This document shows, in pieces, positions 7,570 to 33,289 of a stretch of 64,000 nucleotides of DNA (position 1 is the first letter of the stretch; every line of letters begins with the position of its first letter). The stretch is from Pseudomonas antarctica (lineage in GTDB: Bacteria > Pseudomonadota > Gammaproteobacteria > Pseudomonadales > Pseudomonadaceae). The position numbers and the translations under genes were made by a program. The notes under the pieces are model-generated. The model searched no databases, was not told the origin of the DNA, and was given only the letters and a program-made list of their open reading frames with translations. The DNA lies in assembly GCF_001647715.1 (NCBI RefSeq), contig NZ_CP015600.1:4464001-4528000 (forward strand). Direction: 5' to 3'.

Positions 7570-7586
7570 ACTCAGGAGAGGTCTTT

Positions 7587-8933
7587 ATGCGTTTGAATGG
7601 TCTGACACACCGATGGGTTTTAGGCGTGCTGTGCGGGGTCGCCAGCAGCGCGGTGATTGCCGCCAGCAGTGGCCAGGACAGCGCCCGCGAGGAAATCGCC
7701 ACCCAGGCCAAGGCGCTGGAGCCGAGCCTGCTGGAAACCCGCCGCGATATCCACGCTCACCCCGAATTGGGCAATACCGAGACACGCACCGCCGAGCTGG
7801 TCGCCAAACAACTTCGCGACCTCGGCCTTGAGGTGAAAACCGGCGTGGCCCGCACCGGCGTCGTCGCCATCTTGAAGGGTGGCCTGCCCGGCCCCACCGT
7901 CGCCTTGCGCGCCGACATGGATGCGCTGCCGGTCAAGGAAGTCGCCGACCTGCCCTTCGCCTCGAAGGCCAAAGGCACCTACCTGGGCAAAGAGGTCGAC
8001 GTCATGCACGCCTGTGGCCACGACGCCCACACCGCGATCCTGCTGAGCACAGCGAAAATTCTTACCGGCATGCGTGACCGCCTGCCCGGCACCGTGGTGT
8101 TTTATTTCCAGCCGGCCGAAGAAGGCCCGAGCGACTTTATCCCCGACGGCAAGAACACCTGGGGCGCGAAAATGATGGTGCAGGAAGGCGTGATGACGGC
8201 ACCCAAGCCGGATGCCGTGTTCGGCCTGCATGTCTGGGCCGGCGTACCGGCCGGGCAGATCACTTACCGCCCGGGCCCGACCCTGGCCAGTTCCGATGAC
8301 CTGCGCATCAAGATCCTCGGCAAACAGACCCACGCCGGCCGCCCGTGGGACGGCATCGACCCGATCACCGTTGGCGCGCAAACCATTGTCGGCCTGCAAA
8401 CCGTGGTGAGCCGGCGTACCGACATCTCGTCGTTTCCGTCGGTGGTGAGCATTGGCACCATCAACGGCGGCACGCGCTACAACATCATCCCGGAGTCGGT
8501 CGACATGAGCGGCACCATTCGCTCCTACGATTACGGCATTCGCCAGAAGCTGCACGCGGATGTGCGCCAGACCGTGGAAAAAATCGCCGAGAGTGGCGGT
8601 GCCAAGGCCGAAGTCACCATCATCGAGAAGTACGACCCGACCATCAACAACCCGGCGCTGACCGAGAAAATGCTGCCAAGCCTGCGCTGGGCGGCCAAGG
8701 ATGATGTGGTGCAAGGGCCGCTGGTTGGCGGTGCCGAGGACTTCTCGTTTTATGCCAAGCAAGCGCCAGGACTGTTTGTGTTCCTGGGGGTGACCCCGAG
8801 GGATCAGGACATGAGCAAAGCCGCGCCGAACCATAATCCGGGCTTCTTTGTGGATGAGTCGGCGTTGGTGGTAGGAGTGCGGACACTGGCGTCGTTGGCG
8901 ACGGATTATCTGTATACCAACACACCGCAATAG
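7587..8933 (+). CDS. Exported M20D-type amidohydrolase
   Basis: This 448-aa zinc hydrolase resembles hippurate/N-acyl-amino-acid amidohydrolases. A signal peptide of about 25 residues (RWVLGVLCGVASSAVIAAS) suggests periplasmic location, unlike most cytosolic relatives. Metal-binding blocks are HAHPELGNTE, RADMDALPVKE, HACGHDAHTA, PAEEGPSDF and GGAEDFSFYAKQAPG; the Cys and His of HACGHDAH and the Glu of PAEEG are the expected dinuclear ligands and catalytic base. A good ribosome site (AGGAGAGG) precedes the ATG. It ends just before a REPIN that separates it from the convergent mbtH. The natural substrate is unknown. Confidence 0.88.
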   Translation: MRLNGLTHRWVLGVLCGVASSAVIAASSGQDSAREEIATQAKALEPSLLETRRDIHAHPELGNTETRTAELVAKQLRDLGLEVKTGVARTGVVAILKGGLPGPTVALRADMDALPVKEVADLPFASKAKGTYLGKEVDVMHACGHDAHTAILLSTAKILTGMRDRLPGTVVFYFQPAEEGPSDFIPDGKNTWGAKMMVQEGVMTAPKPDAVFGLHVWAGVPAGQITYRPGPTLASSDDLRIKILGKQTHAGRPWDGIDPITVGAQTIVGLQTVVSRRTDISSFPSVVSIGTINGGTRYNIIPESVDMSGTIRSYDYGIRQKLHADVRQTVEKIAESGGAKAEVTIIEKYDPTINNPALTEKMLPSLRWAAKDDVVQGPLVGGAEDFSFYAKQAPGLFVFLGVTPRDQDMSKAAPNHNPGFFVDESALVVGVRTLASLATDYLYTNTPQ

Positions 8934-8940
8934 GGCTGTT

Positions 8941-9032
8941 CTGTGGGAGCGGGCTTGCCCGCGAGAGTGGTGTGTCAGTCGACGTAGTTGCAAACTGACA
9001 CTCAGCTATCGCGGGCAAGCCCGCTCCCACAG
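8941..9032. repeat. REPIN with perfect 24-bp arms
   Basis: CTGTGGGAGCGGGCTTGCCC begins the left arm (8941-8964) and its exact complement forms 9009-9032. The 44-bp spacer includes the pair TGTCAGT/ACTGACA. It lies between two convergent genes and may act as a bidirectional transcription stop. Confidence 0.9.
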
Positions 9033-9049
9033 TTTGGGGCAGCGGTGTG

Positions 9050-11858: not shown

Positions 11859-13178
11859 TCAGCGCCGTAATGGCATGCCCAGGTCGACCCGCAGACCATC
11901 CGGCTGGCTGTCGAACTTCAAGGAGCAAGAGCAGCGTTGCACGATCGCCTGAACGATCGCCAGCCCCAGGCCGCAGCCTTCGCTGCTGCCATTGCGCCAG
12001 AAGCGTTGGGTCAGGTATTGCAGGTCTTCGCTGGAGATTTGCTTGCCGTGGTCACGCACGCGGAACACTACTGTGTCGGCCGTGGTGAACACATTCAACT
12101 CCACACGGGTGTCGCCCGGGGTATGGCGCAAAGCGTTGTCCAACAAATTGCGCAGGGCTGCAACGGCCAAGGCTACCGGCATTTCCACCGGGGTTTGCGT
12201 GAGGTTCTCCGCCAGGACCAGATCGATGCGCCGATTGTCGCCGGCATTCGCATCCTGGATCGCCAACCGCGCGACTTGTTCGGCACTCGATTGCAGGCCG
12301 TCGTCGAACGACAGGCTGCCCTCCACCCTCGCCAACAGCAGCAATTGCTCCAACGTACGATGCAAGCGGTCGGCGCCTTCTTCGGCATGGGCCAGGGACT
12401 GGTCGCGCGCCGCGCCTTCGGTCATGCGCGCCACTTGCAGGTGGGTCTTGATCGCCGTCAGCGGGCTGCGCAGTTCGTGGGCGGCGTCGCCGGTGAGGCG
12501 GCGCTCACGCTCGATGGTCTTGGCGATGCGTTGCAACAGTTGGTTCTGGGTATCGAGCAGTGGTTTCAACTCGCTGGGCAACGGGTGAATCTGCAGCGGT
12601 TCGAGGGAATCAGCACTGCGGCGCATCAGCGCATCGCGCATGCGGTTGAGCGGCAACAGGCTTTGGCCGATGCCCAGCCACAGCAGGCACAGGCAGCCCA
12701 GCAGCGCCACACCCACCGGCACCGAAGCGGCCAGCAATATCGACAGGTTCAACGCCTCGCGCTCCACCTGGCGGTCGGCGGTGGTGATCAGCAAGTCGCC
12801 ACGGGACAGGGTGAAACTGCGCCAGCTTACGCCGTCGATCACCTGATCGCGAAAGCCACTCTTGCGCGACTCAAGGCCTTCATCCGGGGTCATGTGACTG
12901 CGTGCGAGGATTTCCCCACGCAGGGAGCTGACCTGGCAGGCCATGCCGCCCGGCACGTTCAGTTGCTCGGTGCGCAAATGCGTACCCGCGCTCACACTGG
13001 CCAGGCCCGGCATCTGCTCGGTCAGCCCCGCCACCATACGCGCCGACGCCACCAGGCGCTGGTCGAGCGAAAACATCATCTGGTTACGCAGATCGTTGAG
13101 CATCCAGGCCGCCGCCAGTACCCAGATCAGCACAAAAGCAGCGCCCAGCTTGAACGTCAGGCGCAGGCGCAGGCTCAT
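11859..13178 (-). CDS. dsbS: Sensor histidine kinase of the dsb locus (DsbS-like)
   Basis: This class I membrane kinase (439 aa) lies next to its regulator and opposite dsbD, the arrangement of the P. aeruginosa DsbRS system, which I recall as copper(I)-responsive. TM1 is about residues 10-28, TM2 about 145-169, with a periplasmic domain between. That domain has a single cysteine (GGMACQVSS, residue 81 from ATG 13178 or 82 from the preceding GTG), a plausible thiol sensor. Then come HAMP, the H-box (AAHELRSPLTAIKTHL), the N-box (NLLDNALRHTP) and the G-box (GCGLGLAIV). The ATG overlaps the regulator's stop (TGATG), so translation is coupled. Orthology rests on context and sequence type. Confidence 0.85.
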   Translation of the reverse strand: MSLRLRLTFKLGAAFVLIWVLAAAWMLNDLRNQMMFSLDQRLVASARMVAGLTEQMPGLASVSAGTHLRTEQLNVPGGMACQVSSLRGEILARSHMTPDEGLESRKSGFRDQVIDGVSWRSFTLSRGDLLITTADRQVEREALNLSILLAASVPVGVALLGCLCLLWLGIGQSLLPLNRMRDALMRRSADSLEPLQIHPLPSELKPLLDTQNQLLQRIAKTIERERRLTGDAAHELRSPLTAIKTHLQVARMTEGAARDQSLAHAEEGADRLHRTLEQLLLLARVEGSLSFDDGLQSSAEQVARLAIQDANAGDNRRIDLVLAENLTQTPVEMPVALAVAALRNLLDNALRHTPGDTRVELNVFTTADTVVFRVRDHGKQISSEDLQYLTQRFWRNGSSEGCGLGLAIVQAIVQRCSCSLKFDSQPDGLRVDLGMPLRR

Positions 13179-13873
13179 CACGAAGCGTTGTCTCCTTCGT
13201 CAGCCACACCACCATCCGCCGTACCCAGGCGATAACCGAGGCCGCGCACGGTCTCGACGATGCCGTTGCCCAATTTGCGTCGCAGGTGGTGGATGTGCAC
13301 GTTGAGGGCGTTACTTTCCAGTTCGTCGTTGAAGCCGTAGACACTGTCCTTGAGCTGCTCGCTGGAGAGCACCCGGCCTTTGTTATGCAGCAGGGCCTGC
13401 AACAGCGCTTGCTCGCGACGGGAGAGGTCTACCGGCTGGCCGGCCAGGAAGGTTTCGCGACTGCTGGGGTCGTAGGCCAGATGACCGTGTTCGATCAGGT
13501 TAACCCGGCGCCCTGCTACTCGCCGCAGCAGGGTTTGCAGGCGTGCGGCAAGTTCGCGCAGGTCAAAGGGTTTGAGCAGGTAGTCGTCGGCACCGGCCTG
13601 CAGGCCATCGACACGGTTGGTCACCGAATCGCGCGCCGTGAGGATCAGCACCGGAATTTCCAGGCCCTGGCTGCGCTGTTGTTGCAGCAACTTGAGGCCG
13701 TCTTCGTCGGGCAAGCCAAGGTCGAGCACCATGATGTCGAAGTTGGCCGCCTTGAGCATCGCGCGTGCGGCAGCGGCCGTGGCCACGCGCTCGACGGTAA
13801 AGCCCTGGGCACCGAGCCCGGCCACGATGCCGCTGGCGATCAGTTCGTCGTCTTCACAGACCAGTACGTGCAT
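13178..13873 (-). CDS. dsbR: OmpR-family response regulator of the dsb locus (DsbR-like)
   Basis: The 231-aa protein has a receiver domain (acidic pocket CEDDE near residues 6-10, phospho-acceptor Asp in DIMVLDLGLPDEDG, Lys in YLLKPFDLREL) and a C-terminal winged helix (GRVLSSEQLKDSVYGFNDEL, LNVHIHHLRRKLG). It is first in a two-gene operon with the kinase. It faces dsbD across 176 bp that contain tandem CGGTTAATCA repeats, the likely binding site. By analogy with P. aeruginosa it should activate the dsbD operon. ATG 13873 is preceded by AAGGGTTAAC. Confidence 0.88.
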   Translation of the reverse strand: MHVLVCEDDELIASGIVAGLGAQGFTVERVATAAAARAMLKAANFDIMVLDLGLPDEDGLKLLQQQRSQGLEIPVLILTARDSVTNRVDGLQAGADDYLLKPFDLRELAARLQTLLRRVAGRRVNLIEHGHLAYDPSSRETFLAGQPVDLSRREQALLQALLHNKGRVLSSEQLKDSVYGFNDELESNALNVHIHHLRRKLGNGIVETVRGLGYRLGTADGGVADEGDNAS

Positions 13874-13982
13874 GGTTAACCCTTCATGAATGATGGGGGG
13901 ATTAAAGGTCCAGCGGATTAAGTGCCGATTATGCCGTGAAAAGAGGCGCGCTCAGCGCTTCCCTTCACTTTAGAATAGCGCC

Positions 13983-14003
13983 CGGTTAATCATCGGTTAA
14001 TCA
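13983..14003. promoter_or_regulatory. Tandem direct repeats, probable DsbR operator
   Basis: CGGTTAATCA occurs at 13983-13992 and 13994-14003, one helical turn apart (11 bp), as OmpR-family sites usually are. Two copies of GATTAA, the complement of TTAATC, lie nearer dsbR at 13900-13905 and 13916-13921. The dsbD start is 47 bp downstream. Confidence 0.55.
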
Positions 14004-14049
14004 ACACCACACATTGTGTGCCTAACTTGCATCGAACTAAGGCTTGACC

Positions 14050-15795
14050 ATGCGGTATCTGTTTACCTTTCTGCTGGTGTTGTTTGCAGGGTTCGCCCAG
14101 GCCGCGCCGGGCAATCCCTTCGAGACCAAACCCGATTTCCTCCCGGTGGGCAAGGCCTTCACCTTTACCTCCGAGCGCCTGGAAACCGGCGAGACCCAGC
14201 TGTATTGGCAGATTGCCGACGGTTATTACCTGTACCAGCAGCGCATGAAGTTCGACGGCCTGGCTGAAAAACCGGTATTGCCCCAGGGTGAAGCCCATAG
14301 CGATGAGTTCTTCGGCGAGCAGCAAGTGTATCGCCAAGGCCTGGAAGTGAAGATCCCCGCCGGTGCCACCGGCCAGGTCAAGCTGGGCTGGCAGGGTTGC
14401 GCCGATGCGGGCCTGTGCTACCCGCCACAGTCGATTACCGTGGATCTGGGCGGCACCCCGGCCATAGCGGGCACTGCGCAAGTGCAGGCCCAAGGCCAAG
14501 CCCAGGATCAAAGCCTGGCCAGCGGCCTGCAACAGCGCAGCCTGGGTTGGAGCCTGCTGGTGTTCTTTGGCTTGGGCTTGCTGCTGGCGTTTGCCCCTTG
14601 TTCGTTGCCGATGTTGCCGATCCTCGCAGGGCTGGTGGTGGGCAGTGGCGCCAGCCCGCGTCGCGGTTTTGCCCTGGCCAGCAGCTACGTGGTGTGCATG
14701 GCCCTGGTGTATGCGGCGCTTGGCGTAATGGCCGCGTTGCTGGGCGGCAACCTCGCAGCACTGCTGCAAACGCCCTGGATTCTCGGCAGTTTCGCCGCGC
14801 TGTTTGTGCTCCTCGCCCTGCCCATGTTTGGTTTCTTTGAACTGCAACTGCCAGCCTTTGTGCGTGATCGCCTGGACAATGTCAGCCGCCAGCAAAGCGG
14901 CGGCAGCCTGGTAGGTGCCGGCATTCTTGGCGCACTGTCCGGCCTGTTGGTGGGGCCGTGCATGACCGCGCCACTGGCCGGCGCCCTGCTGTATATCGCC
15001 CAGAGCGGCAATGCGCTGCACGGTGGTTTGATCCTGTTCGCCATGGGCATCGGCATCGGTATTCCACTGTTGTTGCTGGTCACCGTGGGCAACCGCTTCC
15101 TGCCTAAACCGGGCAGCTGGATGGACGTGCTCAAAGGCGTTTTCGGTTTCCTGTTCCTCGGCACTGCGGTGCTGATGATTCGCCCGGTGGTCGGCGAAAG
15201 CCTGTGGATTGGCCTGTGGGGCGCATTGGCGCTGGTGATGGCTTACTGCGGCTGGACACTGGCCCGCGAGTACGGCCTGGCGGCCAAAGTGTTCGGCGCC
15301 GGTTCCCTGGTGCTGGGCCTGTGGGGCGCAGTGCTGATGGTGGGCGCGGCCGGTGGCAGTGACGACCTGTGGCAACCGTTGAAGGTCTACAGCGGATCAA
15401 CAGTGGCGGCTGCGCCGAGCGCCCACGACGCCTTCATGACCATCAGCGACCCGACTGTGCTGCAAAGCCAACTCGACAGCGCCAAAGCCCAGGGCCAATG
15501 GGTGCTGGTGGACTACTACGCCGACTGGTGCGTGTCGTGCAAGATCATGGAAAAACAAGTGTTCGGCAAACCCGAAGTGATGGCCGCGCTGAAAGACGTG
15601 CGCCTGCTGCGCCTGGACGTCACCGCCGACAACGCCGCCAGCCGCGAACTGCTCGGCCGCTACAAGGTGCCAGGGCCACCGAGCTTCGTGTGGATCGGCC
15701 CGGACGGTGAAGAACGCCGCGCACAACGCATCACCGGCGAAGTGGATGCCGCCGCCTTCCTGCAACGCTGGACGCAAACCCGAGACGCACGCTGA
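14050..15795 (+). CDS. dsbD: Thiol:disulfide interchange protein DsbD
   Basis: DsbD moves electrons from cytoplasmic thioredoxin across the inner membrane to periplasmic DsbG/DsbC-type and TlpA-type proteins. The 581-aa protein has a signal peptide (ending FAQAAPG), an N-terminal immunoglobulin-like domain with the Cys pair GCADAGLCYPP, eight membrane spans carrying the cysteine blocks FAPCSLPMLP and VGPCMTAPLAG, and a C-terminal thioredoxin domain with WCVSC. An upstream TTG (14044) is in frame; ATG 14050 is preferred. The next gene overlaps its stop by 1 base (TGATG), and the third member dsbG overlaps that one, so the three form a coupled operon. Confidence 0.94.
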   Translation: MRYLFTFLLVLFAGFAQAAPGNPFETKPDFLPVGKAFTFTSERLETGETQLYWQIADGYYLYQQRMKFDGLAEKPVLPQGEAHSDEFFGEQQVYRQGLEVKIPAGATGQVKLGWQGCADAGLCYPPQSITVDLGGTPAIAGTAQVQAQGQAQDQSLASGLQQRSLGWSLLVFFGLGLLLAFAPCSLPMLPILAGLVVGSGASPRRGFALASSYVVCMALVYAALGVMAALLGGNLAALLQTPWILGSFAALFVLLALPMFGFFELQLPAFVRDRLDNVSRQQSGGSLVGAGILGALSGLLVGPCMTAPLAGALLYIAQSGNALHGGLILFAMGIGIGIPLLLLVTVGNRFLPKPGSWMDVLKGVFGFLFLGTAVLMIRPVVGESLWIGLWGALALVMAYCGWTLAREYGLAAKVFGAGSLVLGLWGAVLMVGAAGGSDDLWQPLKVYSGSTVAAAPSAHDAFMTISDPTVLQSQLDSAKAQGQWVLVDYYADWCVSCKIMEKQVFGKPEVMAALKDVRLLRLDVTADNAASRELLGRYKVPGPPSFVWIGPDGEERRAQRITGEVDAAAFLQRWTQTRDAR

Positions 15796-16646
15796 TGCTG
15801 ACCCTGACCATCGGCACCTTCGCCATCGCCCTGAATCACATCCTGCTGATCAGCGCGCTGATTCTCGCCACGCTGGTGGGCTGGCGCGTGGCCAAGCGTG
15901 GCGGTGAAAACCCGGAATCGGTGCTGTTCAGCCTGTTTCTGCTGGGCATGCTGGTCGCCCGCGTCAGTTTTGTACTGATGTATTGGAGCGATTACAGCCG
16001 CGACCCATTGCAGATGGTTGACCTGCGCGACGGCGGTTTTCTCGCCTGGCCCGGCGTGATCGCACTGGTGCTGGGTGCCCTGTTGTACGGCTGGCGCCGC
16101 CCGGCCTTGCGCAAACCGTTAAGCGCCGGTGTGATCACCGGGCTGGTGTTCTGGGGCCTGACCAGCGTGTCCCTGAGCCTTTACGACAAAGGCGCGCAAC
16201 TGCCGGATATCACCCTGCGCAATGCCAATGGCGACGTGGTGCAACTGGCCGATTACAAAGGCGGCCCACTGGTGATCAACCTCTGGGCCACCTGGTGCCC
16301 ACCGTGCCGCCGGGAAATGCCGGTGCTGGAGCGCGCGCAGCATCAACGGCCGGACGTGACCTTCCTGTTCGTCAACCAGGCCGAAAGCATGCAAAGCGTC
16401 AGCACCTTCCTCGCCACCCAAGGCCTGACCCTCGACAACGTGCTGTTTGACGCCAGCGGCCGGCTCGGCCAGGCCGTGGGCAGCATGGCGTTGCCGACCA
16501 CCCTGTTCTACCAAGCCGATGGGCGCCTGATCAACAGCCACTTGGGCGAATTGTCCCAGGCCAGCCTGGCCCGCGCCATGGAACCCTTCGACACTGCCCC
16601 TGCCGCCACAAGGAAACCGACATGCCTCGACTCCGCCACCTGCTGA
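15795..16646 (+). CDS. Membrane-anchored TlpA/DsbE-like thioredoxin
   Basis: This 283-aa protein has four predicted membrane spans in the first 125 residues (for example HILLISALILATLVGW and AGVITGLVFWGLTSVSLSL) and then a periplasmic TlpA-like thioredoxin domain with the redox pair WATWCPPCRREMP and cis-proline region GSMALPTTLF. The unusual polytopic anchor distinguishes it from ordinary CcmG/DsbE. It is the middle gene of dsbD-tlpA-dsbG and corresponds by position to the gene between dsbD and dsbG in P. aeruginosa. It probably receives electrons from DsbD and reduces a specific periplasmic client, which the sequence does not reveal. Its C-terminus overlaps the dsbG start by 25 bp in another frame. 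Confidence 0.82.
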   Translation: MLTLTIGTFAIALNHILLISALILATLVGWRVAKRGGENPESVLFSLFLLGMLVARVSFVLMYWSDYSRDPLQMVDLRDGGFLAWPGVIALVLGALLYGWRRPALRKPLSAGVITGLVFWGLTSVSLSLYDKGAQLPDITLRNANGDVVQLADYKGGPLVINLWATWCPPCRREMPVLERAQHQRPDVTFLFVNQAESMQSVSTFLATQGLTLDNVLFDASGRLGQAVGSMALPTTLFYQADGRLINSHLGELSQASLARAMEPFDTAPAATRKPTCLDSATC

Positions 16647-17383
16647 CCCTGCTGCCGCTGACGCTCGCGGCCACCCTGGCCCAGGCCGAAGACTGGCCTG
16701 CACCGATCAAGCAGATTGAAGCCAAGGGCGCCAAGATCCTCGGCAAGTTCGACGCACCCAGCGGGCTCACCGGCTACGCCGCGCAGTACCAGAACCGCGG
16801 CATGGCCCTGTACCTGACTGCCGACGGCAAAAGCGTGATCGCCGGCAACCTGTACGACGCCGAAGGCAAAGACCTGAGCAGCGCGCCCCTGGAAAAACTG
16901 GTGTACGCGCCGATGGCCAAGGAAGTCTGGGGCAAAATGGAAAACAGCAGCTGGATTCAGGACGGCGATAAAAACGCGCCACGTATCGTCTACCTGTTCA
17001 GCGACCCCAACTGCCCGTACTGCAACATGTTCTGGGAACAGGCACGGCCGTGGGTAAAAGCCGGCAAGGTACAGTTGCGCCACATCATGGTCGGTATTAT
17101 CCGCGAAGACAGCCCAGGCAAGTCGGCCGCCCTGTTCGCCGCCAAAGACCCGCAGAAAGCCCTGGAAGAACATGAAGCCGCCGGCAAAGGCAGCAAATTG
17201 CAGGCGCTGGACAAGATTCCGGCGGATATCGAAGCCAAGCTCGATGCCAACATGAAGTTGATGGAAGAGCTGGAATTGTCGGCAACGCCAGCGATTTTCT
17301 ATCTGGATGACAAGGGCGGCTTGCAGCAACAGCAAGGCGCGCCATCGCCGGACAAGCTGGCGAAGATTCTGGGGCCGAAGTAA
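16622..17383 (+). CDS. dsbG: Periplasmic disulfide isomerase/chaperone DsbG
   Basis: DsbG is a V-shaped dimeric isomerase that also rescues sulfenylated single cysteines. The 253-aa precursor has a signal peptide (residues 1-22, ending TLAQA), an N-terminal dimerisation domain, and a thioredoxin domain with SDPNCPYCNMFWEQ (CPYC active site) and cis-proline LSATPAIFYLDDKGG. It is the last gene of the dsbD operon, its start lies inside the preceding gene, and an intrinsic terminator follows 93 bp after its stop. Confidence 0.92.
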   Translation: MPRLRHLLTLLPLTLAATLAQAEDWPAPIKQIEAKGAKILGKFDAPSGLTGYAAQYQNRGMALYLTADGKSVIAGNLYDAEGKDLSSAPLEKLVYAPMAKEVWGKMENSSWIQDGDKNAPRIVYLFSDPNCPYCNMFWEQARPWVKAGKVQLRHIMVGIIREDSPGKSAALFAAKDPQKALEEHEAAGKGSKLQALDKIPADIEAKLDANMKLMEELELSATPAIFYLDDKGGLQQQQGAPSPDKLAKILGPK

Positions 17384-17476
17384 TCGGCGTTTCCCTAAGA
17401 ATGTTTCAGGCTTGCCTAACAGAAAGCGAGCACAACAATTCATAGAAACCTGGATGAAGGTTTGAGCTTGACGCAG

Positions 17477-17513
17477 AAAATCCGATGCCCAAACAGGCAT
17501 CGGATTTTATTTC
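17477..17513. terminator. Bidirectional intrinsic terminator between dsbG and the chitinase
   Basis: Perfect 13-bp stem AAAATCCGATGCC / GGCATCGGATTTT with loop CAAACA. T-runs on both strands (ATTTTATTTC and TTTTCTGCG) allow it to serve both convergent transcripts. Confidence 0.9.
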
Positions 17514-17583
17514 ATGAAGCCAACGATCAGATCATAAACATAGCTGTTTGAGATCAGGCACGTCTGCCAGATGTCTCTTTGCG

Positions 17584-18648
17584 CTACCGCCGATTGGCGA
17601 CTTCGAGATCCGCCTCATCCTCACCGAGGCCAGAGAGGTGAGTGCCTTTGATCAACGGCCCATAACGGCGGCTGAATTCCCCGTTATAGGGCACGTGGTC
17701 TTTGCTGATCCCGCGGTCCCAATTCACCGACCATGTCATCAGGCCCTTGATCGACAACCCTTTGTCGTACAAACGCTTGAATGCATTGGTCACGGCTGCG
17801 GGGTTGATCACATAACCGGTGGCGGCTGCATCGACGTTAGCCGGTAGGCCAATGACGAACTTGTCCGCCGGGATTTTAGTAAACCCTCGCGTTCCGCTCA
17901 CCAGACTTTCGGTCAGGTAAAACAGGAAATCCTCTTTCATTGCGTCGTTGTTCTGGGCAATCCAGGCACCGTTGCCGTTGTTGACCTCCTGCACCCAGAT
18001 CCCGTCGCCCCCCTGGTTGTAATACTGCGGGGCAATGAAGTCGTAATAGCCTTCCAGCGCCTGGATGTAACCGACGTATTTACCGGCGGTGGTCAGGTAA
18101 GGAAACTCCGGCGCCATGCTGATAATGAAGTGTTTGCCTTCACCGGCGTAATGGTCCTTGACCAGTTTCAACGCAGCGGGCAGGACAGTCTTGTTGTCGG
18201 CGAAATCAATCGCGCTCTGCTCAAGATCGATGTCCAGGCCATCAAAGCCATAGGTTTCCACCAGGCGGATAATCTCGTTGGCCAATGGCTGTTCGTTGCC
18301 TTTATGCAACTCGATGTGCGCATCGGCGCCGCCAAGGGAAATCAGCACCGCCCTGCCCTGGCTGTTCAGCACGCCCACCTGGCGGCGGAACTCGGCGTCG
18401 GAAAGGTTGTACGGCTTGAACGTTGGGATACCGTTGCCTTTCATGAAGGCCACGGCCACCACGTTGTAATCCGTCGGCACGTCCGCCAGGTTCATGTTGG
18501 CAAATTGGCCACGCTGGTAGCCGTCGCTCGCGCCGGCAGGCCAGTTGTGCCAGAAGCCCATGAGGATCTTTTTGCCGGCAATGCTCGGCATCAGCGAAGC
18601 GACATCGTTCAGCGGCGATTTCAGTAAGGTGAAGTCAATCTTTGACAT
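17584..18648 (-). CDS. GH18 chitinase without signal peptide
   Basis: The enzyme should hydrolyse chitin or chito-oligomers by a retaining, substrate-assisted mechanism. The 354-aa protein is a single GH18 barrel with LISLGGADA and the catalytic motif FDGLDIDLEQ (acid/base Glu about residue 143), then MAPEFPYL, FIAPQYYNQGG and MTWSVNWD. The N-terminus MSKIDFTLLKSPLNDVASLM is polar and no secretory leader is visible, so export cannot be by Sec or Tat. AAGGA precedes the ATG at good distance. It lies 40 bp downstream of the LPMO gene on the same strand and probably shares its promoter. The pair is discussed in the findings. Confidence 0.9.
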   Translation of the reverse strand: MSKIDFTLLKSPLNDVASLMPSIAGKKILMGFWHNWPAGASDGYQRGQFANMNLADVPTDYNVVAVAFMKGNGIPTFKPYNLSDAEFRRQVGVLNSQGRAVLISLGGADAHIELHKGNEQPLANEIIRLVETYGFDGLDIDLEQSAIDFADNKTVLPAALKLVKDHYAGEGKHFIISMAPEFPYLTTAGKYVGYIQALEGYYDFIAPQYYNQGGDGIWVQEVNNGNGAWIAQNNDAMKEDFLFYLTESLVSGTRGFTKIPADKFVIGLPANVDAAATGYVINPAAVTNAFKRLYDKGLSIKGLMTWSVNWDRGISKDHVPYNGEFSRRYGPLIKGTHLSGLGEDEADLEVANRR

Positions 18649-18688
18649 GTTCTAATCCTTCAGAACGTATGGGTTTAACGGCGCGGGC

Positions 18689-19324
18689 TTATTTGAAGTC
18701 CACGTCGAAGGCTTGATAGAAAGCGTTGCCGGTGTTGGCGACGATCCACATCAACACGATCACATGCTTGCCCTTTTTGTTGGCCGGCAGTTTCACTTCG
18801 TGATTGACCTTGGCCTTCAGTTCACCTGGATGACTGAAGTACGGCACCTGGGTATAGAAGTCTTCGGCGAACGGCTGGGGTTCCAGTTGTGCGCGGGTGA
18901 TGCGCTGTTTCGGATCCCAGCCATCCTTGGTGATCAGCCAACGATAGCCACGGGTGGTGTGCGGTGCGGTGTATTCCCAGGTGACCTTGAAGGTCTGACC
19001 CGGGTCGACATTGAGCAGCGGCCAGGTGAAGGCGCGGTTGAGTTTCTTGGCCATTTCCTCGTTGGTGAAGTTGATGCAGTCACGGGCATCGGTCTTGCCG
19101 CCGCTGAGGATGAAGCCGTCGGCTGGTGGGGTGACGCTGTCACTGTCGGTTTGATAAGGCGCCGGGAACGGACCGGCAATCAGTGCCGGAAAGTTCTTGC
19201 CGCCTTCCATTTCATTGACTTGCCAGGTAGCCAGCAGGCCGAGATCCACGGCGACTGCGCCACGGCTGGAAGGGGATGTGACACGACCATGGCGAAGAGG
19301 TGTCTGGGTTTGTGGTTTATTCAT
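18689..19324 (-). CDS. AA10 lytic polysaccharide monooxygenase (chitin-binding protein) without signal peptide
   Basis: AA10 enzymes are copper monooxygenases that cut crystalline chitin and need a mature N-terminal histidine. Here RHGRVTSPSSRGAV provides the expected HG-V-P-SR block at His12, and YTAPHTTRGYRW gives the second copper His (about 122). The C-terminal IVANTGNAFYQAFDVDF is also typical. The 211-aa protein begins MNKPQTQTPLR, eleven polar residues and no leader. A TAA lies in frame two codons before the ATG and GGAG precedes it, so a longer secreted form is ruled out. Activity would require removal of residues 1-11, or the protein may act as a chitin binder. It is first in a likely two-gene operon with the chitinase. 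Confidence 0.9.
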   Translation of the reverse strand: MNKPQTQTPLRHGRVTSPSSRGAVAVDLGLLATWQVNEMEGGKNFPALIAGPFPAPYQTDSDSVTPPADGFILSGGKTDARDCINFTNEEMAKKLNRAFTWPLLNVDPGQTFKVTWEYTAPHTTRGYRWLITKDGWDPKQRITRAQLEPQPFAEDFYTQVPYFSHPGELKAKVNHEVKLPANKKGKHVIVLMWIVANTGNAFYQAFDVDFK

Positions 19325-19459
19325 TTGTTACTCCATTGCTATTGATTAAGAACTCTCCTTTCTTGAAGGAGAGAATCTCAACCTAACGGAGTTGCTTTTT
19401 TTTTCCACAGGACCGTTTTTCACTCATTTTCTTTTCAGGAGACGATAAACCCTAAAACA

Positions 19460-19475
19460 CTGTATATAAAAACAG
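19460..19475. promoter_or_regulatory. LexA (SOS) box upstream of the LPMO-chitinase pair
   Basis: CTGTATATAAAAACAG is a perfect CTG-N10-CAG LexA site, and with flanks (ACTG...CAGT) it matches the strong Escherichia coli umuDC box as I recall it. It lies 136 bp before the LPMO start in an AT-rich stretch. No other convincing gene is near: to the right the next gene (pvdL) reads toward it from 14 kb away. A 21-bp stem-loop (CTCTCCTT-tcttg-AAGGAGAG, 19353-19373) lies between the box and the LPMO start. Confidence 0.65.
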
Positions 19476-19699
19476 TTAAATGGAAATCACGTACACCACC
19501 GGCGGTCAATTTCCTACAATTCAAGGCGCAAATAAGCACAGCTACTCTCGTAAATCGCCTTATCCCGTTCGTAAGTGATGGCCCTCTGCATGTGATGAGG
19601 TATTGGCCTGGCGGCGAGAAAGAATTTCCAGGGAGCGTTCTCAATCAATCAGATGTGCCGAAAGCCACCTTCACCACCTGACCCGAGCCACGCATGAGC

Positions 19700-20051
19700 A
19701 TAGGTATCTACACAACTTTTTTTACGGGTTGAGTACTGTGGTTGACGCGGGGCCGCTGGGTACATATCCGTTATTTGGATCACGGCTGCTATGGGTTCCG
19801 CCCTTACGGCGACTCACTTTTGAACAGCGCAAAAGTAAGCAAAACGCTCTTGCCCCACCACTCGGCACCTCAGATCAAGATCAAAAGCAAAGCTGAGGCG
19901 GCCTGACAGCCGGCCTGATCTCTGAAGCTGAACTCAATCAAATGTGGGAGCGGGCTTGCCCGCGAAGGCGTCGGCTCAGCAAACATTGAAGTTGACTGAC
20001 CCACCGCTTTCGCGGGGATGTGGCGGCCTTTCAAAGTTGTGCAGATACCTG
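19700..20051. mobile_element. MITE-like element with 17-bp inverted ends and 11-bp flanking direct repeats
   Basis: GGTATCTACACAACTTT at 19703-19719 is repeated in inverse at 20033-20049 with one mismatch. Just outside, CACGCATGAGC occurs as a direct repeat at 19689-19699 and 20052-20062, like a target duplication. Inside are a stretch I recognise as a common intergenic repeat of pseudomonads (19740-19872, containing GGTTCCGCCCTTACGGCGA and ACGCTCTTGCCCCACC) and a half-decayed REP doublet (19940-20022). It carries no gene. The 1018-bp gap 19325-20342 holds only this element, the LexA box and the transposase remnant. Confidence 0.5.
19940..20022. repeat. Degenerate REPIN
   Basis: The left REP (AAATGTGGGAGCGGGCTTGC, 19940-19966 with its CCGCGAA tail) is intact; the right half (TTTCGCGGGGATGTGGC) has lost the GCAAGCCC core. 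Confidence 0.6.
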
Positions 20052-20056
20052 CACGC

Positions 20057-20309
20057 ATGAGCCAGATAAGCTTCTCCGACTTCGAACGGTTACTTACAGG
20101 AACAAGATCTGCCCCCGCGCCAGGGCACCATCGTCGATGCCACGATTATTCATGCTCCCAGCTCAACCAAGAACGAGGAAGGTCAGCGTGATCCTGAGAG
20201 GCACCAGCCCCAAAAAGGTAACCCGTGCCACTGTGGAATAAAGGCCACTATCGGCGCCGATGTGGGTTGTGCGTTAAGCAACGCTGAAAGTCGTTTTCGT
20301 TTCGACTAA
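20057..20309 (+). pseudogene. Remnant of an IS5-family transposase
   Basis: The ATG opens with MSQISFSDFE, the usual N-terminus of IS5-type transposases. The frame then shifts by one at about 20088 and continues LQEQDLPPRQGTIVDATIIH, APSSTKNEEGQRDPE, and a KKGN...GIKATIGADVG-like block, which belong to the middle of the protein around the first catalytic Asp. The large region between and the C-terminal part are missing, so it is an internally deleted relic, stopping at 20309 just before the end of pvdL. Confidence 0.75.
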
Positions 20310-20342
20310 CAGCGCGCTCACCGCCAGTTGTTCCAGGGTTCC

Positions 20343-23300
20343 TTAAAGCCCTTCCAACTCCGCCATCAAATCACTCAACCGATCCACCTTCTCGGCACTG
20401 ATCTCATTCGCCGCCAACCCATCAATGTACTCAGCCAACTCCGCCACCGTGCTGCACTCGAACATCGCCCGTAGCGGCACATCGCGTTGCAGGGTTTTCT
20501 GCACGCGGGAGGCAATCTGCGTGGCCAGCAACGAGTGCCCGCCCAGTTCGAAGAAGTTGTCCTGTACCCCCACCCTTTCGACTTTCAGCACCTCGGCCCA
20601 AATCGCAGCCAAGGTGGTTTCCAGCGCGTTGCGCGGTGCCAGATAGTCCTGGCTGTGCAACTGGCCGATCTCCAGTTCCGGCAGGGCCTTGCGGTCCAGC
20701 TTGCGGTTGGCGTTCAGCGGCAGGCGGTCGAGCCATAGCCAATGCAGCGGCACCATGTATTCCGGCAGCTCGGTGCGCAGGCGTTGCTTGATGCGGTCCA
20801 GGCGATCACTCGGGTTCAACGCTTCATCAGCCGCCACCAGATAGCCGACCAAGTGCTTGCCGTTAACGCCTTCCTGCACGCCGACGGCCGCGTCACGTAC
20901 TTCCGGTTGCTCATGCAGGCGCGCTTCGATTTCACCCAACTCTATGCGATAGCCGCGAATCTTCACCTGATGGTCGATACGCCCCACGTACTCCAGTACG
21001 CCATCGCTGCGCCGACGTGCGAGGTCGCCGGTGCGGTACAGCCGATCGCCGGGCGCACCGAACGGGTTCGGCACAAAGGCTTGCGCCGTGCGCAGCGGGT
21101 CGCTGACATAACCTCGGCCGACACCGGTGCCGGCCACGCACAACTCGCCAACGGCGCCCTGTGGCACCAGCTCCAGCGCACCCTCGAGCACGTACAAACG
21201 GTTGTTATCCGTGGGCGTGCCGATCGGCAGGTAGGTACCCCGGGTCGACGCCAGGTCGACGCGGAAGAACGCCACGTCATCCGAACACTCCGCCGGCCCG
21301 TAGGCATTGACCAAACCAATCTCTGGATAGCGCAACAACCATTGGTGCGCCAGCTCAGGCGGCATCGCCTCCCCCGTCGGCAACATCCAGCGCAGGCCAT
21401 CCAGGCTCATGCGCTCCTGGGCCAGCATGCCCTGGATCAGTGACGGCACGCTTTCCAGCACGGTAATGCCCTGGGCCTGCACATGCGCCAGCAAACCTTG
21501 CGGATCATGGGCAATGGTGTTCGGCACGATAGCCACCCGCGCGCCGAACAGCGGCGCCGCCAGGAACTGCCACACCGAAATGTCGAAGCTTTGCGAGGCC
21601 GTCTGGGCGATCACATCGGTCTCGCTCAGTTGCAGGTACGGCACCTTGCTCAACTGGTTGTTCAGCATGCCGCGCTGCTCGACCATCACGCCTTTGGGCA
21701 AGCCGGTGGAGCCCGAGGTGTAGATCACGTAGGCAAGGTTGTCGGGGCCGCTGTAGACGCCCGGGTTTTCGCCACGGCCAGGCACGTCTTCCCACACCAG
21801 CATCTGGCAGGCGGTGCCCTCCAGCAACTCAATCGCCTGTTCGCGGCATGCCTCGGTGCACACCAGCAATGGCGTACGGCTCAGGTCGATGATGCGACTC
21901 AAGCGCGAGCGTGGCAGGCCCGGGTCCAACGGTAAGTAACCGGCACCGGCCTTGAAGCTGCCGATGAGCATGCCCAGCAAGTCGAGATTACGTTCGGCCA
22001 GCAACGCCACCGGTTGATCCAGCCCGACGCCCGCAGCGATCAGCGCGTGGCCCAGGCCGTTACTGCGGCGATTCAGTTCGTCATAGGTCCACTGTTGGTC
22101 GAGGCAACTGGCGGCGATGCGTTGCGGATGCTGCGCCACCTGCGCTTCGAACAACTCGATGTAACTGCGCTCCAGCGGGTAGTCATGCTCGCTCTGGTTG
22201 CAGCCTTGCACCAGGAATTCACGCTCCTGTTCGCCGATCAGCGGCAGTTCGGCCATGTCGCCATGAAAGCCCTGCACCAGCGCCAGCAGCAGGCGTTTGA
22301 ACTCAGCGAGCATGCCTTGCACGGTGGTTTCGTCGAAATAGCGCTGGTCGTAGGACAGGTGCAGACCGAGGTCGTCGCCCGGGTAGCACACCGCCGTCAG
22401 CGGGAAGTTGGTGTGGGTGCGACCGGAATCCGAGGTGGCATTCAGGCTTTGCGCATGGTCCAGCACCGAGACTTCCACCGGCGCGTTCTCAAACACAAAC
22501 AGGCTGTCGAACAGCGGCTGGCCCTTGGGCAGTTCGCTGTGCTCCTGGATAGTCACCAACGGCAGGTATTCGTACTCGCGCAGTTGCATGTTGCTGTCGA
22601 GCAAGCCGCTCAGCCACTGGCGCACACTGCAACGCTGGTCGTCCTCGGGCAGTTTCACCCGCAGCGCAATGCTGTTGATAAACAGGCCGACGGTACGTTG
22701 CATCTCCGGCATTTCCACCGGGCGCCCGGCCACGGTGACGCCGAACAAGACGTCACGATCCCCGCTCACGCGGCGCAGCACTAACGCCCATGCCGCTTGG
22801 GCGAAGGTGTTGACGGTCAGCTGATGGGCCTGCGCCAGTTCACGCAGTTGCGCGCCGTCACGGGCATCGAGGCGCGTGTAACAGTCGCCCACCACCATGC
22901 CACCGCTATGACCCGCATGCTCACGCAGGAACGGCCGGTCGCTGGGGATCGGCGTAGTGCGCTCGAAGCCTTGCAGGTTCTGCTGCCACCACTGGCGCGC
23001 TTCGGCAAGGTTCTGGCGTTGCAGCCAGGCGATGTAGTCGCGGTAGCGCGGCGGCGTGGCCAGTTGCGCATCGCGGCCTTCGCCGAGGGCCATGTAGATC
23101 TCGAAGAAGTCATTCATCAGCAGCGAACGACACCAGGCATCGATCAGGATGTGGTGGTTGCTCATCATGAACCAGTAGCGCGCTTCGCCGACGCGGATCA
23201 GGCGCAGGTGGAACGGCGCCTGGTTGAGCAGATCAAAACCGGCTTCGCGCTCCTGCTTGAGCAGGGCTTGCAGACGCGGTTCCTGTTCGCTTTCTGGGTC

Positions 23301-26300
23301 AGCGCGCCAGTCCAGATATTCAATCGGTGTACTGCCCGGTTTATGGATCACTTGCAGCATGTCTTCGCCGACGTTCCAGCAGAACGACGCACGCAAGGCT
23401 TCATGCCGCGCGATCACTGCCTGCCAGGCCTGCGCAAAACGCTCGGGGTCCAGCGCGCTGTTGATGCGGTAGCGGTCCTGCATGTAATAGAGGCCGGTGC
23501 CCGGCTCCAGCAGGGTGTGCAGCAGCAAGCCTTCCTGCATCGGGGTCAGCGGGTACACGTCTTCGATGGCGCTGGCCGGAACCGGTAAGGCGTCGAGTTG
23601 GGATTGGTTCAACTGCGCCAGCGGGAAGTCGGATGGCGTGAGGCCACCGGCCTCGTCGTTGAGGCAGTGTGCGATCAGGCTGTGCAATTCGCAGAGGTAG
23701 GCATCGGCCAATGCGCGGATGGTCTGCTGATCGTGGCGTTCACGGCTGAAGGTCCAGCGCAGTACCAGTTCACCGCCATAGACTTGGCTGTCGACGCTCA
23801 ACGCATTGGGTAACGTGGCCTCCGGGTCATGGGCCAGGCCCGCCGATTCATCCAGCGGGTGGAACAGCGCATCGGCGCCGAAGCCCTGATCAAACTGGCC
23901 GAGGTAGTTGAAGGTGATGTCGGCGCTTGGCAGTGCGGCCAGGGTCTGCTTGCACAGGTCATCCGCCAGGTAGCGCAGCACGCCATAACCCAAACCTTTG
24001 TGCGGCACGCCGCGCAGTTGCTCCTTGATGGCCTTGATCGAGTCTCCCGGCCCGCCTTGCGGCGTCAGGCGCAGTGGATAAGCGCTGGTGAACCAGCCAA
24101 CGCTGCGGGTCAGGTCGATGTCATCGAACAGGGGTTCGCGGCCATGGCCTTCCAGCTGGATCAAGGCCGAATCGTGGCCGCTCCAGCGGCACAGCACGCG
24201 AGCCAGGGCCGTCAGCAACAGGTCATTGACCTGGGTGCGGTAGGCGCTCGGCGCCTGTTGCAACAACTGACGGGTGTGTTCGGCATCCAGGCGCACGCTG
24301 ACGGCGTCGGCATCGCGATGACGCAGCGAACCCTGTGGCCGATCCATCGGCAAGGCCACGTTCGGCCCGGCCAACTGGTCTTGCCATGCGCTCAGCTCTT
24401 CGCGCAAAGATTCGCTGCTCGCATAGGCCTGCAAGCGCGCGGCCCAATCGCGCAACGCGCTGGTCTTGGCGGGCAGGCTGACGGATTGGCCGGTGCTCAG
24501 CTGGCGGTAAACCGTTTGCAGGTCCTCAAGCAACACGCGCCACGACACGCCGTCCACCACCAGGTGATGGACCGCGATCAGCAGGCGTTGCTGACCTTGC
24601 GGGCCGTCCACCAGCAAAGCGCGCAGCAGCGGGCCGTGCTCGAGGTCAAGGCTGCGTTGGGTGTCGGTGAACAGCGCGGTGCATTGCTGCATATCACGCA
24701 CTTGCGCCTGCATCAGCACGCCGCCTTGCGGGACGGCCAGATGCTCGGCATGCCATTGAGCGTCGCGTGGGGTAAAGCTCAGGCGCAGGGCATCGTGATG
24801 TTCCAGCACCGCCAGCAACGCTTGCTCCAGGCGATGAGGCTCCAGCAATTGCAGCGGTTTAAGCACCAACGCCTGGTTCCAGTGCTGACGATTCGGGATA
24901 TCGGTATCGAAGAACCAATGCTGGATCGGCGTAAGGCCGGAGCTGCCAGTGAGCACACCTTGTTCAGCCGTGACCAGCTCGGAGCGGGTCGCAACGGCCG
25001 CCAGGGTTTGCACGGTCTGGTGCTGGAACAGGTCGCGAGGGCTGAAATGAATCCCGGCCTGTCGCGCACGGCTGACAACCTGGATCGACAGGATCGAGTC
25101 GCCGCCCAGCTCAAAGAAGTTATCGTGCAAGCCGACTTGCTGCACGTTCAGCACGGCGCACCAGATTGCCGCCAGGGTTTGCTCGCGCTCGTTGCGCGGC
25201 GCGACGTACTGTTGGCGGTTGGCTTCGGGGTCCGGTTGCGGCAAGGCGCGGCGGTCGAGCTTGCCGTTGGCGGTCAGCGGCATGCTGTCCAACACGATCA
25301 GGTGCGCGGGCACCATGTAGTCCGGCAGTTGCGCCTTGAGGTGCGCCTTCAGCCCGTCACGCAATGTGCCGTGGTCTGCGTCGCTGACCAAATAGGCCAC
25401 CAACTGCTTGCCACTGGGCGAATCCAGCGCCAGCACCACCGCTTCGCGCACGGCTGCGTGTTCCAGCAGACGGGTTTCGATTTCGCCCAGCTCGATGCGG
25501 AAACCGCGAATTTTCACTTGATGGTCGATCCGGCCCAGGTATTCCACCAGGCCGTCGGCGCGTTGGCGCACCAGGTCGCCGGTGCGGTACAGACGGCCGC
25601 CATTCCCACTAAACGGGTCAGCGACAAAACGCTCGGCCGTCATGCCCGCACGCTCGTGATAGCCTTGGGCCAAACCGGCTCCGCCGACATACAACTCGCC
25701 GGTCGCACCTTGCGGTACCAGGGCCAGGTCGGCGTCGAGAATGCAGGCCACGCGGGCGCCGATGATGCTGCCGATGGGCACGCTGGCAGCGCCCTCCTCC
25801 AGGCACTCCGGCGCCAGACTGGCCAGCGGCATCACCACGGTTTCGGTCGGGCCATAGGCGTTGAAAAACACCTCCGGCTGGAAGGCTGCGCGGATACGCT
25901 GCAAGTGCTCGCCGGTCAGCGCTTCGCCACCGGTGATGCACATGCGCACCGGCAACGTCTGGTGCTGGGTGGCCAGCCATTGCGCCAACTGGCTGCCGTA
26001 GCTCGGGGTAAAACCAAGCACATTAATGCGATGGGTGCGGATCAGCGCGCAAATTTCTTCGGCATCCCACTGGCCCTGGGCGCGCAACACCACCTGCGCA
26101 CCGCTGAGCAACGGCACCAGCAAACGTTCGGTGGCGGCGTCGAAATTGATCGAATAGAAGTGCAGCTCGCAGTCGTCCGGGCGCATGCCGAAGCGCTCGA
26201 TCACGGCTTGGCAATGCATGGCGATTTCACCGTGGGAGACCACCACGCCTTTGGGCTTGCCGGTGGAGCCGGAGGTGTAGATCAGGTACGCCTGGTGTTG

Positions 26301-29300
26301 CGCCAGGCTGATAAACGGCAGCGCGTCGGCCGGGTAATTGGCCAGCACCGGCAGGTCATCTTCCAGGCACCAGCAAGCCACGGTCGCCGGCAATTCGCCG
26401 AGGGCCTCGAACATGGCTGCATCACTGAGCAGCAGGCCGATGCCGCTGTCTTCGATCATGTAGTGCAGGCGGTCCAGCGGGTATTCCGGGTCCAGCGGCA
26501 CATAGGCACCACCCGCCTTGAGGATCGCCAACAGGCCGATGACCATTTCCAGGGAGCGCGGCAGCGCCAGGCCCACGCGTACCTGCGGGCCGACGCCACG
26601 CTCGCGCAGCATCCACGCGAGGCGATTGGCGCGGGTGTCCAGTTCGCGGTAACTGAGGGTTTCCCCGGCGAAGGTCAAGGCAGCGGCATCGGGACGGGCT
26701 GCTGCCTGTTGGCTGAACAGTGAATGCAGGCACTGGTCGAGGCGATGCACGCCGGGCTCGACGCCCAGGCTGTCGTGCAATACGCGCTGCTCGACGGCAG
26801 TCAGCAACGGCAGTTCGCTGAGGCGCTGTTCGGGGCTTGCGATCAACGCCTCCAGGAGGTTGCGCCAATGTTCAGCCATGCGCGCAATGCGCGGTTCGTC
26901 GAACAGGTCGGTGCTGTAGGTCAGGCAGCAACCCAGGCGATGGTCGAGGTCGGTGACTTCCAGGTTGAGGTCGAACTTGGTCGCACGCGCATCGTTGGCC
27001 AGGTACTCGACGGTCATGCCGGCCAGTTGGCGGCTTTGCTGGAACTCCCAGCGCTGCACGTTGCACATCACCTGGAACAGTGGGTTGTACGCCGCGCTGC
27101 GCGGAGGTTGCAGGGCTTCCACCAAGTGGTCGAACGGCAGGTCCTGATGGGACTGGCCTTCGATCACGGTGTGGCGCACGTGCTCGAACAACTCGCCAAC
27201 CTGCATCTGCCCATTGAGCTGGCAACGCAGCACTTGGGTGTTGAGGAACGCACCGATCAACCCTTCGCTTTCCGGGCGAATGCGGTTGGCCACGGGCGCA
27301 CCGATGCGCAGGTCGGTCTGGCCGCTGTAGCGGTAGAGCAACACTGCCAAGGTGGCGGTCATGGTCATGAACAGGGTCAGGCCACGCTCGGCATTAAAGG
27401 CACGCACGCGAGCGGCCAGATCGTCGCTCAGGTCGAAGCGGTACAACTCGCCCTGATGGCTTTGCACCGGTGGCCGTGGGCGGTCGCCGGGCAGTTCGAG
27501 CAATGGATGCTCGTGACCCAGTTGTGCGGTCCAGTAGTCGAGTTGACGCTGGCGCTCACCCGACTCCAGCCACTGGCGCTGCCACACGCTGTAGTCGAGG
27601 TATTGCACCGGCAGCGGCGCCAGTGGTGAGTCGCGCTCGTCGATAAAGGCTTCGTACAACGCGCTGAGTTCACGGGCAAAGATGTCCATGGCCCAGCCTT
27701 CGGTGACGATGTGGTGCAGGGTCAGCACCAGGTAGTGCTCTTGCTCCCCGGCTTTGACCAGGCATGCACGCAGCAGAGGCCCGGTTTCCAGGTTGAATGG
27801 CGTGTGGGCTTCCTGATCGGCCAGATGTTGCAGACGCTGCTGGCGCTCGGTGTCATGCAGCGCCGAAAGATCCTGCCAGTCCATGCGCAAGCCGGTTTGC
27901 GGCGCGACCTTCTGATAAGCCACCCCGTCGATGCTCGGGAAAGTGGTGCGCAGGGTTTCGTGGCGCATGATCAGCGCTTGCAACGCCGCCTCAAAACGCC
28001 CCACATCGAGCACGCCACATAGGCGGGCCATGCCGCCGACGTTGTAGGCAGGGCTATCCGGCTCCATCTGCCAGAGGAACCACATACGCTGCTGGGAATA
28101 GGACAGCGGCACGGGCTGGCGGCGGTCGACCTTGGCGATGGCGGTTTGCTGGTTGCGCTGACCCGAGGCCTGGATAAGGCCGACTTGCTCGGCAAATGCG
28201 CCCAGCTCACTGGCTTCGAACAAGGTGCGCAACGGCAACTCGACGTCGCAGGCCTGGCGGGTGCGGGAGATGATTTGCGTGGCCAGCAGCGAGTGGCCGC
28301 CGAGGGCGAAGAAGTCGTCGTGCAGCCCGATACGTGGCAAGCCAAGCACTTCGCGCCATATGGCTGCAATCTGCTGCTGCAACGGGGTTTGCGGCTCAAC
28401 GTGTTCGCGGGTCTGCCACACCGGCTCGGGCAACGCGCGGCGGTCGAGTTTGCCGCTGGGGCTCAAAGGCATGGCATCCAGGCGCATCAACAGCGCGGGC
28501 ACCATGTACTCCGGCAGCTCAGCCGCGAGGGCCGCTTTTACGGCCGGCTCGCCCAACTCGGCATGGGCGGTGTAATAGGCGATCAACTGTGCATCACGCA
28601 CCAGCACCACCGCTTGGGCGATGCCGTCCAGCGCCAACATACGGGCTTCGATTTCTTGCGGTTCAACACGGAAACCACGCAACTTGACCTGCTGATCCAG
28701 GCGACCGAGGTATTCGAGCACGCCATCGGCGCTCCAGCGCACACGGTCACCGGTGCGATACAGGCGTGCGCCCGCCTCGCCCAATGGGTCGGCAACAAAA
28801 CGCTCTGCGGTGAGCCCGGCACGGCCAAGGTAACCGCGCGCCAGGCCGATGCCGCCGATGCACAGTTCGCCGGGCACACCGGCCGGTAACGGGTTGAGCT
28901 GCTCGTCCAGCACGCGGCAGATCACATTGCCCAGCGGCCGGCCAATCGGCGAACGCTCGCCATCTTCCGTGCGGCAATGCCAGTGGGTGACGTTGATCGC
29001 GGTTTCAGTCGGGCCATAGCGGTTGTGCAGTTGCACCGCCGGCAACGTCGCCAAGACGCGATTACGCAACTCGGCGGGCAAGGCTTCGCCGCCGGAGAAC
29101 ACCCGACGCAGACTGGTGCACTCGGCCACCAATGGTTCATCGATAAACAGCTGCAACAGCGGCGGCACGAAGTGCAGCGTGGTCACGCCATGCTCTTGCA
29201 CCAACTGCGCGATGCGGTGCGGATCGCGATGCTCGCCTGGCCCCGCCAGCACCAGACGGCAACCGGCAATCAGCGGCCAGAAGCATTCCCACACCGACAC

Positions 29301-33239: not shown

Positions 33240-33289
33240 GGGGTTCCTGCCTGAAATCGGCTTACGGGAAATCGGGAAATAGGGTGCTT

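Follow-up and report, generated by a model that had tools for sequence, protein, structure and literature searches.

A conserved SOS-like site ahead of a leaderless LPMO-chitinase gene pair suggests that damaged Pseudomonas cells may make chitin-degrading enzymes and release them by bursting

In many Pseudomonas species, a conserved SOS-like palindromic site precedes two adjacent genes coding for an LPMO and a chitinase that both lack a signal peptide, which suggests that damaged cells may make these enzymes and release them by bursting. We identified this arrangement in a 64,000-nucleotide stretch of the Pseudomonas antarctica genome (hereafter the window; Table 1). We give roughly even chances to the whole explanation, namely that a LexA operator puts the pair in the SOS regulon, that the proteins are released by lysis, and that the LPMO is activated by a protease outside the cell. 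The proposal that, in a Pseudomonas clade, DNA damage triggers an altruistic chitin attack, where tailocin-firing cells would free the chitinase and an inactive LPMO precursor to be activated by an Arg/Lys-His cut outside, is put forward tentatively, as something possible rather than probable.

Table 1. Coordinates of the features of the LPMO-chitinase locus, given as positions of the window.
Feature	Position	Strand	Basis
GH18 chitinase, ChiC type, 354 aa, catalytic domain only, without signal peptide	17584..18648	-	PF00704 and 4axn match
AA10 LPMO, 211 aa, without signal peptide; brace His is residue 12, after Arg11	18689..19324	-	PF03067 and alignment
Ribosome-binding site GGAG of the LPMO gene	19331..19334	-	sequence inspection
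Leader hairpin CTCTCCTTCAAGAAAGGAGAG, position conserved in relatives	19353..19373	-	sequence inspection
Putative core promoter TGGAAA-N16-TAGGTT (TGGACA-N16-TANNTT in relatives)	19380..19407	-	by eye
Probable LexA-type operator: conserved palindromic box CTGTATATAAAAACAG (CTGTTTTTATATACAG in gene direction)	19460..19475	.	sequence search

The LPMO gene and, 40 bp on, the chitinase gene are both on the minus strand. Assignment to PF03067 (Pfam, E 3.5e-29) together with invariant brace residues places the first protein in family AA10, while assignment to PF00704 (E 1.9e-10) and a best match among solved chitinases to 4axn ('Chitinase C1', E 1.6e-168) make the second a ChiC-type GH18 enzyme. The LPMO gene starts with an ATG preceded by a GGAG ribosome site, and an in-frame TAA lies just upstream. 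A first-pass annotation, made from the sequence alone, had described an AA10 LPMO followed after 40 bp by a GH18 chitinase, neither of them with a signal peptide. ORFs and Pfam families bear out the gene pair; the absence of signal peptides is supported by the start codons and hydrophilic N-termini of both proteins and, for the LPMO, by an alignment of 119 sequences, in all of which the same brace His is preceded by 9, 11 or 13 residues.

The P. antarctica genome also codes for a second ChiC-type chitinase (488 aa; locus L310, C1:1742000-1761999), which adjoins a berberine-bridge-type FAD oxidase without obvious signal peptide, the two genes being at 7310-9043 and 9445-10911 of L310, and an oxidase of this type is again found beside the pairs of L309 (3760-5460) and L312 (10945-12633). 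Oxidases of the berberine-bridge type can yield hydrogen peroxide, a substrate used by LPMOs. Within the window, positions 20343-33554 of the minus strand code for a 4403-aa peptide synthetase that starts with an acyl-AMP-ligase-like part and was judged by eye to be similar to the pyoverdine synthetase PvdL.

An exact pattern search recovered the box at the place given by the first-pass annotation, 136 bp from the start of the LPMO gene, and CTGTNTNNNNNNACAG is matched exactly nowhere else in the window. When the search tolerates one mismatch, it yields 10 matches where 9.0 are expected, and only the exact one is therefore informative. Over the 6.6 Mb genome, CTGTNTNNNNNNACAG is matched 25 times in the forward and 27 times in the reverse orientation, whereas its reversed control is matched 3 and 6 times. 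The exact 16-mer CTGTATATAAAAACAG occurs at two places, the second being 31 bp ahead of a PA0069-family radical-SAM gene. Sites of the same type precede recA, lexA, a yebG-like gene, two DUF1654 genes, a topoisomerase gene and, on a small contig, an S24-peptidase gene of UmuD size, and one is found about 260 bp upstream of a Pyocin_S gene. Boxes of the CCAG variant are present ahead of recN and of a VRR-NUC nuclease gene. Several of the 40 genomic sites fetched are within genes or adjoin genes without an assignable SOS tie.

Conservation was assessed in 298 Pseudomonas genomes, 142 of which had an LPMO match; 70 loci were taken, nearly all best-scoring places, to the exclusion of a disrupted copy in G007 and of AA10 matches with lower scores, most of which lie in longer frames, and a second set comprised 80 of 104 named loci. 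Removal of duplicates gave 118 distinct LPMO loci, and the addition of locus L309 gave the 119 LPMOs of the tree. Of the 118 loci, 91 have a CTG-N10-CAG palindrome whose first base lies 143 to 152 bases upstream of the ATG. Its outer bases are invariant, as are the T residues at +16, +18 and +19, while most flanking positions vary. At the fourth base of the two halves, 52 of the 91 boxes have T/C (CTGT..CCAG, a form also present at recN), 23 have G/C (CTGG..CCAG) and 16 have T/A (the canonical CTGT..ACAG), and the two halves change within close relatives. The first-pass annotation had called the box near-perfect, which is true of P. antarctica and a minority of relatives but is not the general conserved state (16/91 canonical); conservation itself is stronger than a single sequence could reveal.

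The first-pass annotation had also named absence of the box from close relatives that keep the gene pair as an observation that would count against it. The pair is present in 92 of the 118 loci; the box precedes 81 of these pairs and is absent from 11, and it is found at 10 of the 26 lone LPMO genes. The LPMOs of the 11 boxless pairs fall on the boxless side of the maximum-likelihood tree (119 LPMOs), in which the box label changes once, although the branch separating the two groups is weakly supported (47/0) and a single change is found in half of 200 bootstrap trees. The pair and its box occur together in several gene neighbourhoods, indicating that the box moves together with the genes. The second LPMO copy of the P. 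antarctica genome (L085) has no box. The idea that boxless copies sit in prophages, and hence need no box, was judged by eye from ORF lists (the second LPMO of P. antarctica, G232, G292, G061, G271 contig 12, G141, G044 and G006) and mostly dropped, as only G232 (L312) looked mobile.

Several lines of sequence comparison argue that the box is a LexA-type operator, a reading that we consider well supported. The operator is canonical in the window and has the form CTGT..CCAG or CTGG..CCAG in most relatives. For comparison, we analysed the regions ahead of recN, lexA and the PA0069-family gene in the 30 best of 59, 59 and 56 genomes, respectively. Upstream of recN, CTGTATAAATAACCAG is present in 28 of the 30 best-matching genomes (28 with CCAG, one with ACAG and one boxless); lexA carries CTGTATATAATCCCAG plus a CTGT..ACAG box in 30/30, the first lexA box having a CCAG half-site in all 30; and a box precedes the PA0069-family gene in 28/30. 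A CCAG half is therefore normal for LexA-type sites in these genomes. The CTGG..CCAG form is absent from the recN, lexA and PA0069-family boxes of the 30 best genomes each, and LPMO boxes of this form are probably weak as operators. The published Pseudomonas pattern CTGKMTNNWHDHHCAG also permits G at the fourth base, as reported in PMC8544851.

We then scored the LPMO boxes with a matrix built from 28 distinct LexA-type sites. The median score of the 91 boxes is 20.7 bits, compared with -3.9 for random CTG-N10-CAG, by a matrix that is slightly circular as a test of LexA because it includes sites of the P. antarctica genome beside presumed SOS genes, two of which (L010 and L019) have no Pfam family. 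All 91 score at or above the weakest of the 28 sites, and 59 at or above the tenth percentile. The inner bases conform to the LexA pattern; when they are shuffled, the LPMO-box median is attained in 1.0% of cases. A 21-base motif derived from the LPMO boxes has 135 matches in 87 of 99 genomes and none with the reversed control: the recN box sequence accounts for 81 of them and LPMO boxes for 16, leaving 38 others. Among 20 of these 38 that were fetched, eight lie ahead of DUF1654, yebG, PA0069-family or TIGR03916 radical-SAM genes, while the remaining 12 have no assignable SOS tie, one preceding a DNA cytosine methylase gene and some being inside ORFs. We take the PA0069-family, DUF1654 and yebG genes to be LexA targets, and the NCBIfam label for YebG is DNA damage-inducible. 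The conservation of the box, the recovery of recN, yebG, DUF1654 and PA0069-family boxes by the motif, and the empty reversed control make LexA the best reading. The first-pass assignment to the LexA site type is thus well supported at the sequence level by the matrix, the motif and the recN and lexA boxes, except that the canonical form is in the minority. The LPMO-chitinase pair likely belongs to the SOS regulon. Genome counts, conservation and matrix scores together ruled out a chance origin of the box.

The position of the box is odd for a repressor, being far upstream of the likely core promoter. A search upstream of the LPMO gene did not find a consensus sigma-70 promoter; the centre of the box is about 95 bp upstream of the putative core promoter, whose version in relatives, TGGACA-N16-TANNTT, by eye recurs in loci with and without the box, boxless relatives keeping the promoter. 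The boxes at recN, lexA and the PA0069-family gene of the same genome are 26-45 bp from the start codon, against 136 for the LPMO. To act from so far away, a repressor would have to rely on a promoter upstream, on looping or on interfering with an activator. Because of this distance, an activator of another family stays a fair rival: the palindrome would bind a different dimeric regulator, with an activator, for instance of the LuxR type, as the likeliest candidate, and the P. antarctica site would be a perfect LexA look-alike by accident. LuxR-type boxes also have the form CTG-N10-CAG. Further points in the same direction are the weak-looking core promoter, the 3' half, which is mostly CCAG (75/91), and the variation of the halves within close relatives. 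Quorum-type or signal control of such genes exists as well, since Pvf is reported to act in P. entomophila (PMC10194917). Yet the inner bases are LexA-like to a degree that few shuffles attain, and the extended motif, which might have named a second regulator, gave SOS-type genes instead (recN, yebG, DUF1654), no second regulon being apparent among the 20 other matches fetched. On balance, we regard another regulator as rather unlikely and retain LexA.

The leader has additional features. In relatives, the loop of the hairpin often contains GGA, in addition to the GGAG of the ribosome site, an arrangement that we take to resemble RsmA/CsrA targets, and at 19325-19373 of the window the loop GGA is gone. 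Relatives have conserved TGTAGG-like blocks, perhaps an activator site, some 190 bp upstream of the LPMO start codon and 45-16 bp upstream of the box; the blocks are also present in many boxless loci. The lone LPMO genes of L081 and L183 have a CTGGCTGGATRTCCAG palindrome followed by TATTTTG, 84-85 bp before the start codon, at the place of the core promoter.

The precursor-like LPMO is the most unexpected of the new findings: its His12 is internal, a feature absent from the first-pass annotation. In LPMO chemistry the N-terminal His is described as a bidentate copper ligand (PMC5094447), and in the protein as translated this His is residue 12, so the enzyme should need a cut after residue 11 and, while uncut, would not be expected to work as an ordinary LPMO. 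The residue before the brace His is Arg in 97 and Lys in 22 of the 119 LPMOs. Processing outside the cell is plausible by analogy with P. aeruginosa ChiC, which has no recognised signal peptide and whose first 11 residues are reportedly cleaved off (PMC11218509). The internal position of His12 may also be read differently, as that of a chitin-binding or cytoplasmic protein whose N-terminal His is never exposed and which would not act as an LPMO; for 3uam, a relative from B. pseudomallei, the tabulated entries are His19, His122 and Phe205, with none for a metal (PMC5094447). That reading appears improbable given that His12, His122 and Phe206 are invariant in 118/118 sequences, that Arg or Lys precedes the His in 119/119, and that the gene is coupled to a chitinase in 92/118 loci.

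Concerning the exit route, the first-pass annotation had seen no lysis gene beside the pair, and by eye we likewise found none among ORFs of at least 80 aa at 12000-26000, nor the coupled holin, endolysin and spanin expected for type 10 secretion cargo. The genome does have lysis genes elsewhere, as a tailocin lies between mutS and recA, with a CI-like repressor, holin, tail sheath, tape measure and GH19 endolysin, along with prophage-like genes (by eye); LexA-like near-matches, each one outer base short, are present at 43210 and 44405 of this interval. In SBW25 the tailocin locus is reported to have a LexA site and tailocin lysis to follow SOS (PMC8544851), CHA0 tailocins are described as exiting by explosive lysis (PMC7815802), and leaderless cargo released through lysis is known elsewhere (PMC10847048). 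Among related loci, the family search for lysis genes covered L309, which has such genes 5 kb away: this IMG/VR contig (IMGVR_UViG_2806311066_000003, 335-9028) codes for an LPMO of 71% identity together with a chitinase. About 5 kb upstream of this pair are a cell-wall hydrolase gene and an Rz1-like gene (below the Pfam cut-off), downstream is an integrase-like fragment (below cut-off), and no CTG-N10-CAG precedes the pair. The L309 pair thus lies between lysis-type genes and an integrase-like fragment, as phage cargo might. Phage records were discarded as a source of the LPMO (eight records from Listeria and Enterococcus phages, all below 60% identity).

The holin and endolysin of the resident tailocin, the SBW25 and CHA0 tailocins and the L309 contig make release of the pair by lysis reasonable, and the case is circumstantial. 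Alternatively, LexA might control the pair while exit is unrelated to tailocin or phage lysis and occurs by a non-lytic route, vesicles or ordinary cell death. This would agree with the lack of a lysis gene seen by the pair at 12000-26000, and with the report that P. aeruginosa ChiC activity is found in pellets and appears in supernatants only with mucin extract (PMC11218509); however, the genome's own lysis genes and the lysis-freed leaderless cargo of PMC10847048 make such an exit unlikely in our view.

From these data we infer LexA binding, induction, release by lysis and activation by cleavage as successive steps. Through the operator, the leaderless LPMO-chitinase operon would belong to the SOS regulon of Pseudomonas, in addition to being served by a basal promoter closer to the gene, and DNA damage would raise its expression through LexA cleavage. 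Some of the same cells would fire a tailocin or prophage, whose holin and endolysin would burst the cell and free both enzymes. Outside, a protease cut after Arg11 would make His12 the new N-terminus and complete the copper site. If true, chitin-degrading enzymes would join the SOS regulon, and an LPMO could stay inactive inside the cell and be switched on outside. Leaderless chitinases of pseudomonads have been linked to insect killing (PMC7784888, PMC10194917), and in CHA0 a chitinase gene is reported to reach its highest expression in the insect (PMC7784888). An SOS operator conserved across these species would link enzyme production to a known lysis programme, making the question of exit directly testable. 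We found no report of SOS control of the pair in the literature on SOS/LexA, leaderless secretion and tailocins, within a coverage that excludes most subscription journals.

Among known systems, the pair shares a chitinase and an LPMO with P. entomophila, where chiC (PSEEN2568) and the LPMO gene PSEEN2567 have adjacent locus numbers and are both reported to respond to Pvf (PMC10194917). Control differs in that these genes are described as Pvf-controlled, with 0 occurrences of SOS in that paper; the pair and box are nevertheless present in the P. entomophila COR5 locus (L128). The type 10 secretion system ChiWXYZ of Serratia marcescens is similar in its ChiC-type chitinase (4axn) and in release, chitinolytic enzymes being freed by lysis of a minority of cells (PMC10847048). 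However, the Serratia lysis cassette is dedicated and under ChiR, whereas none was seen beside the P. antarctica pair, whose box suggests LexA; in the same paper, the Yersinia system is described as SOS-insensitive (PMC10847048). With the SOS-controlled S-type pyocins and tailocins of Pseudomonas the likeness is in the box type, which the Pyocin_S gene of the same genome shares, but the cargo of the pair targets chitin and not bacteria, and no immunity or lysis gene was seen with it. Finally, P. aeruginosa ChiC is likewise a GH18 chitinase without a signal peptide (PMC11218509); it has FnIII and CBM5/12 domains, as does the second chitinase type of the P. antarctica genome, whereas the window chitinase consists of the catalytic domain only.
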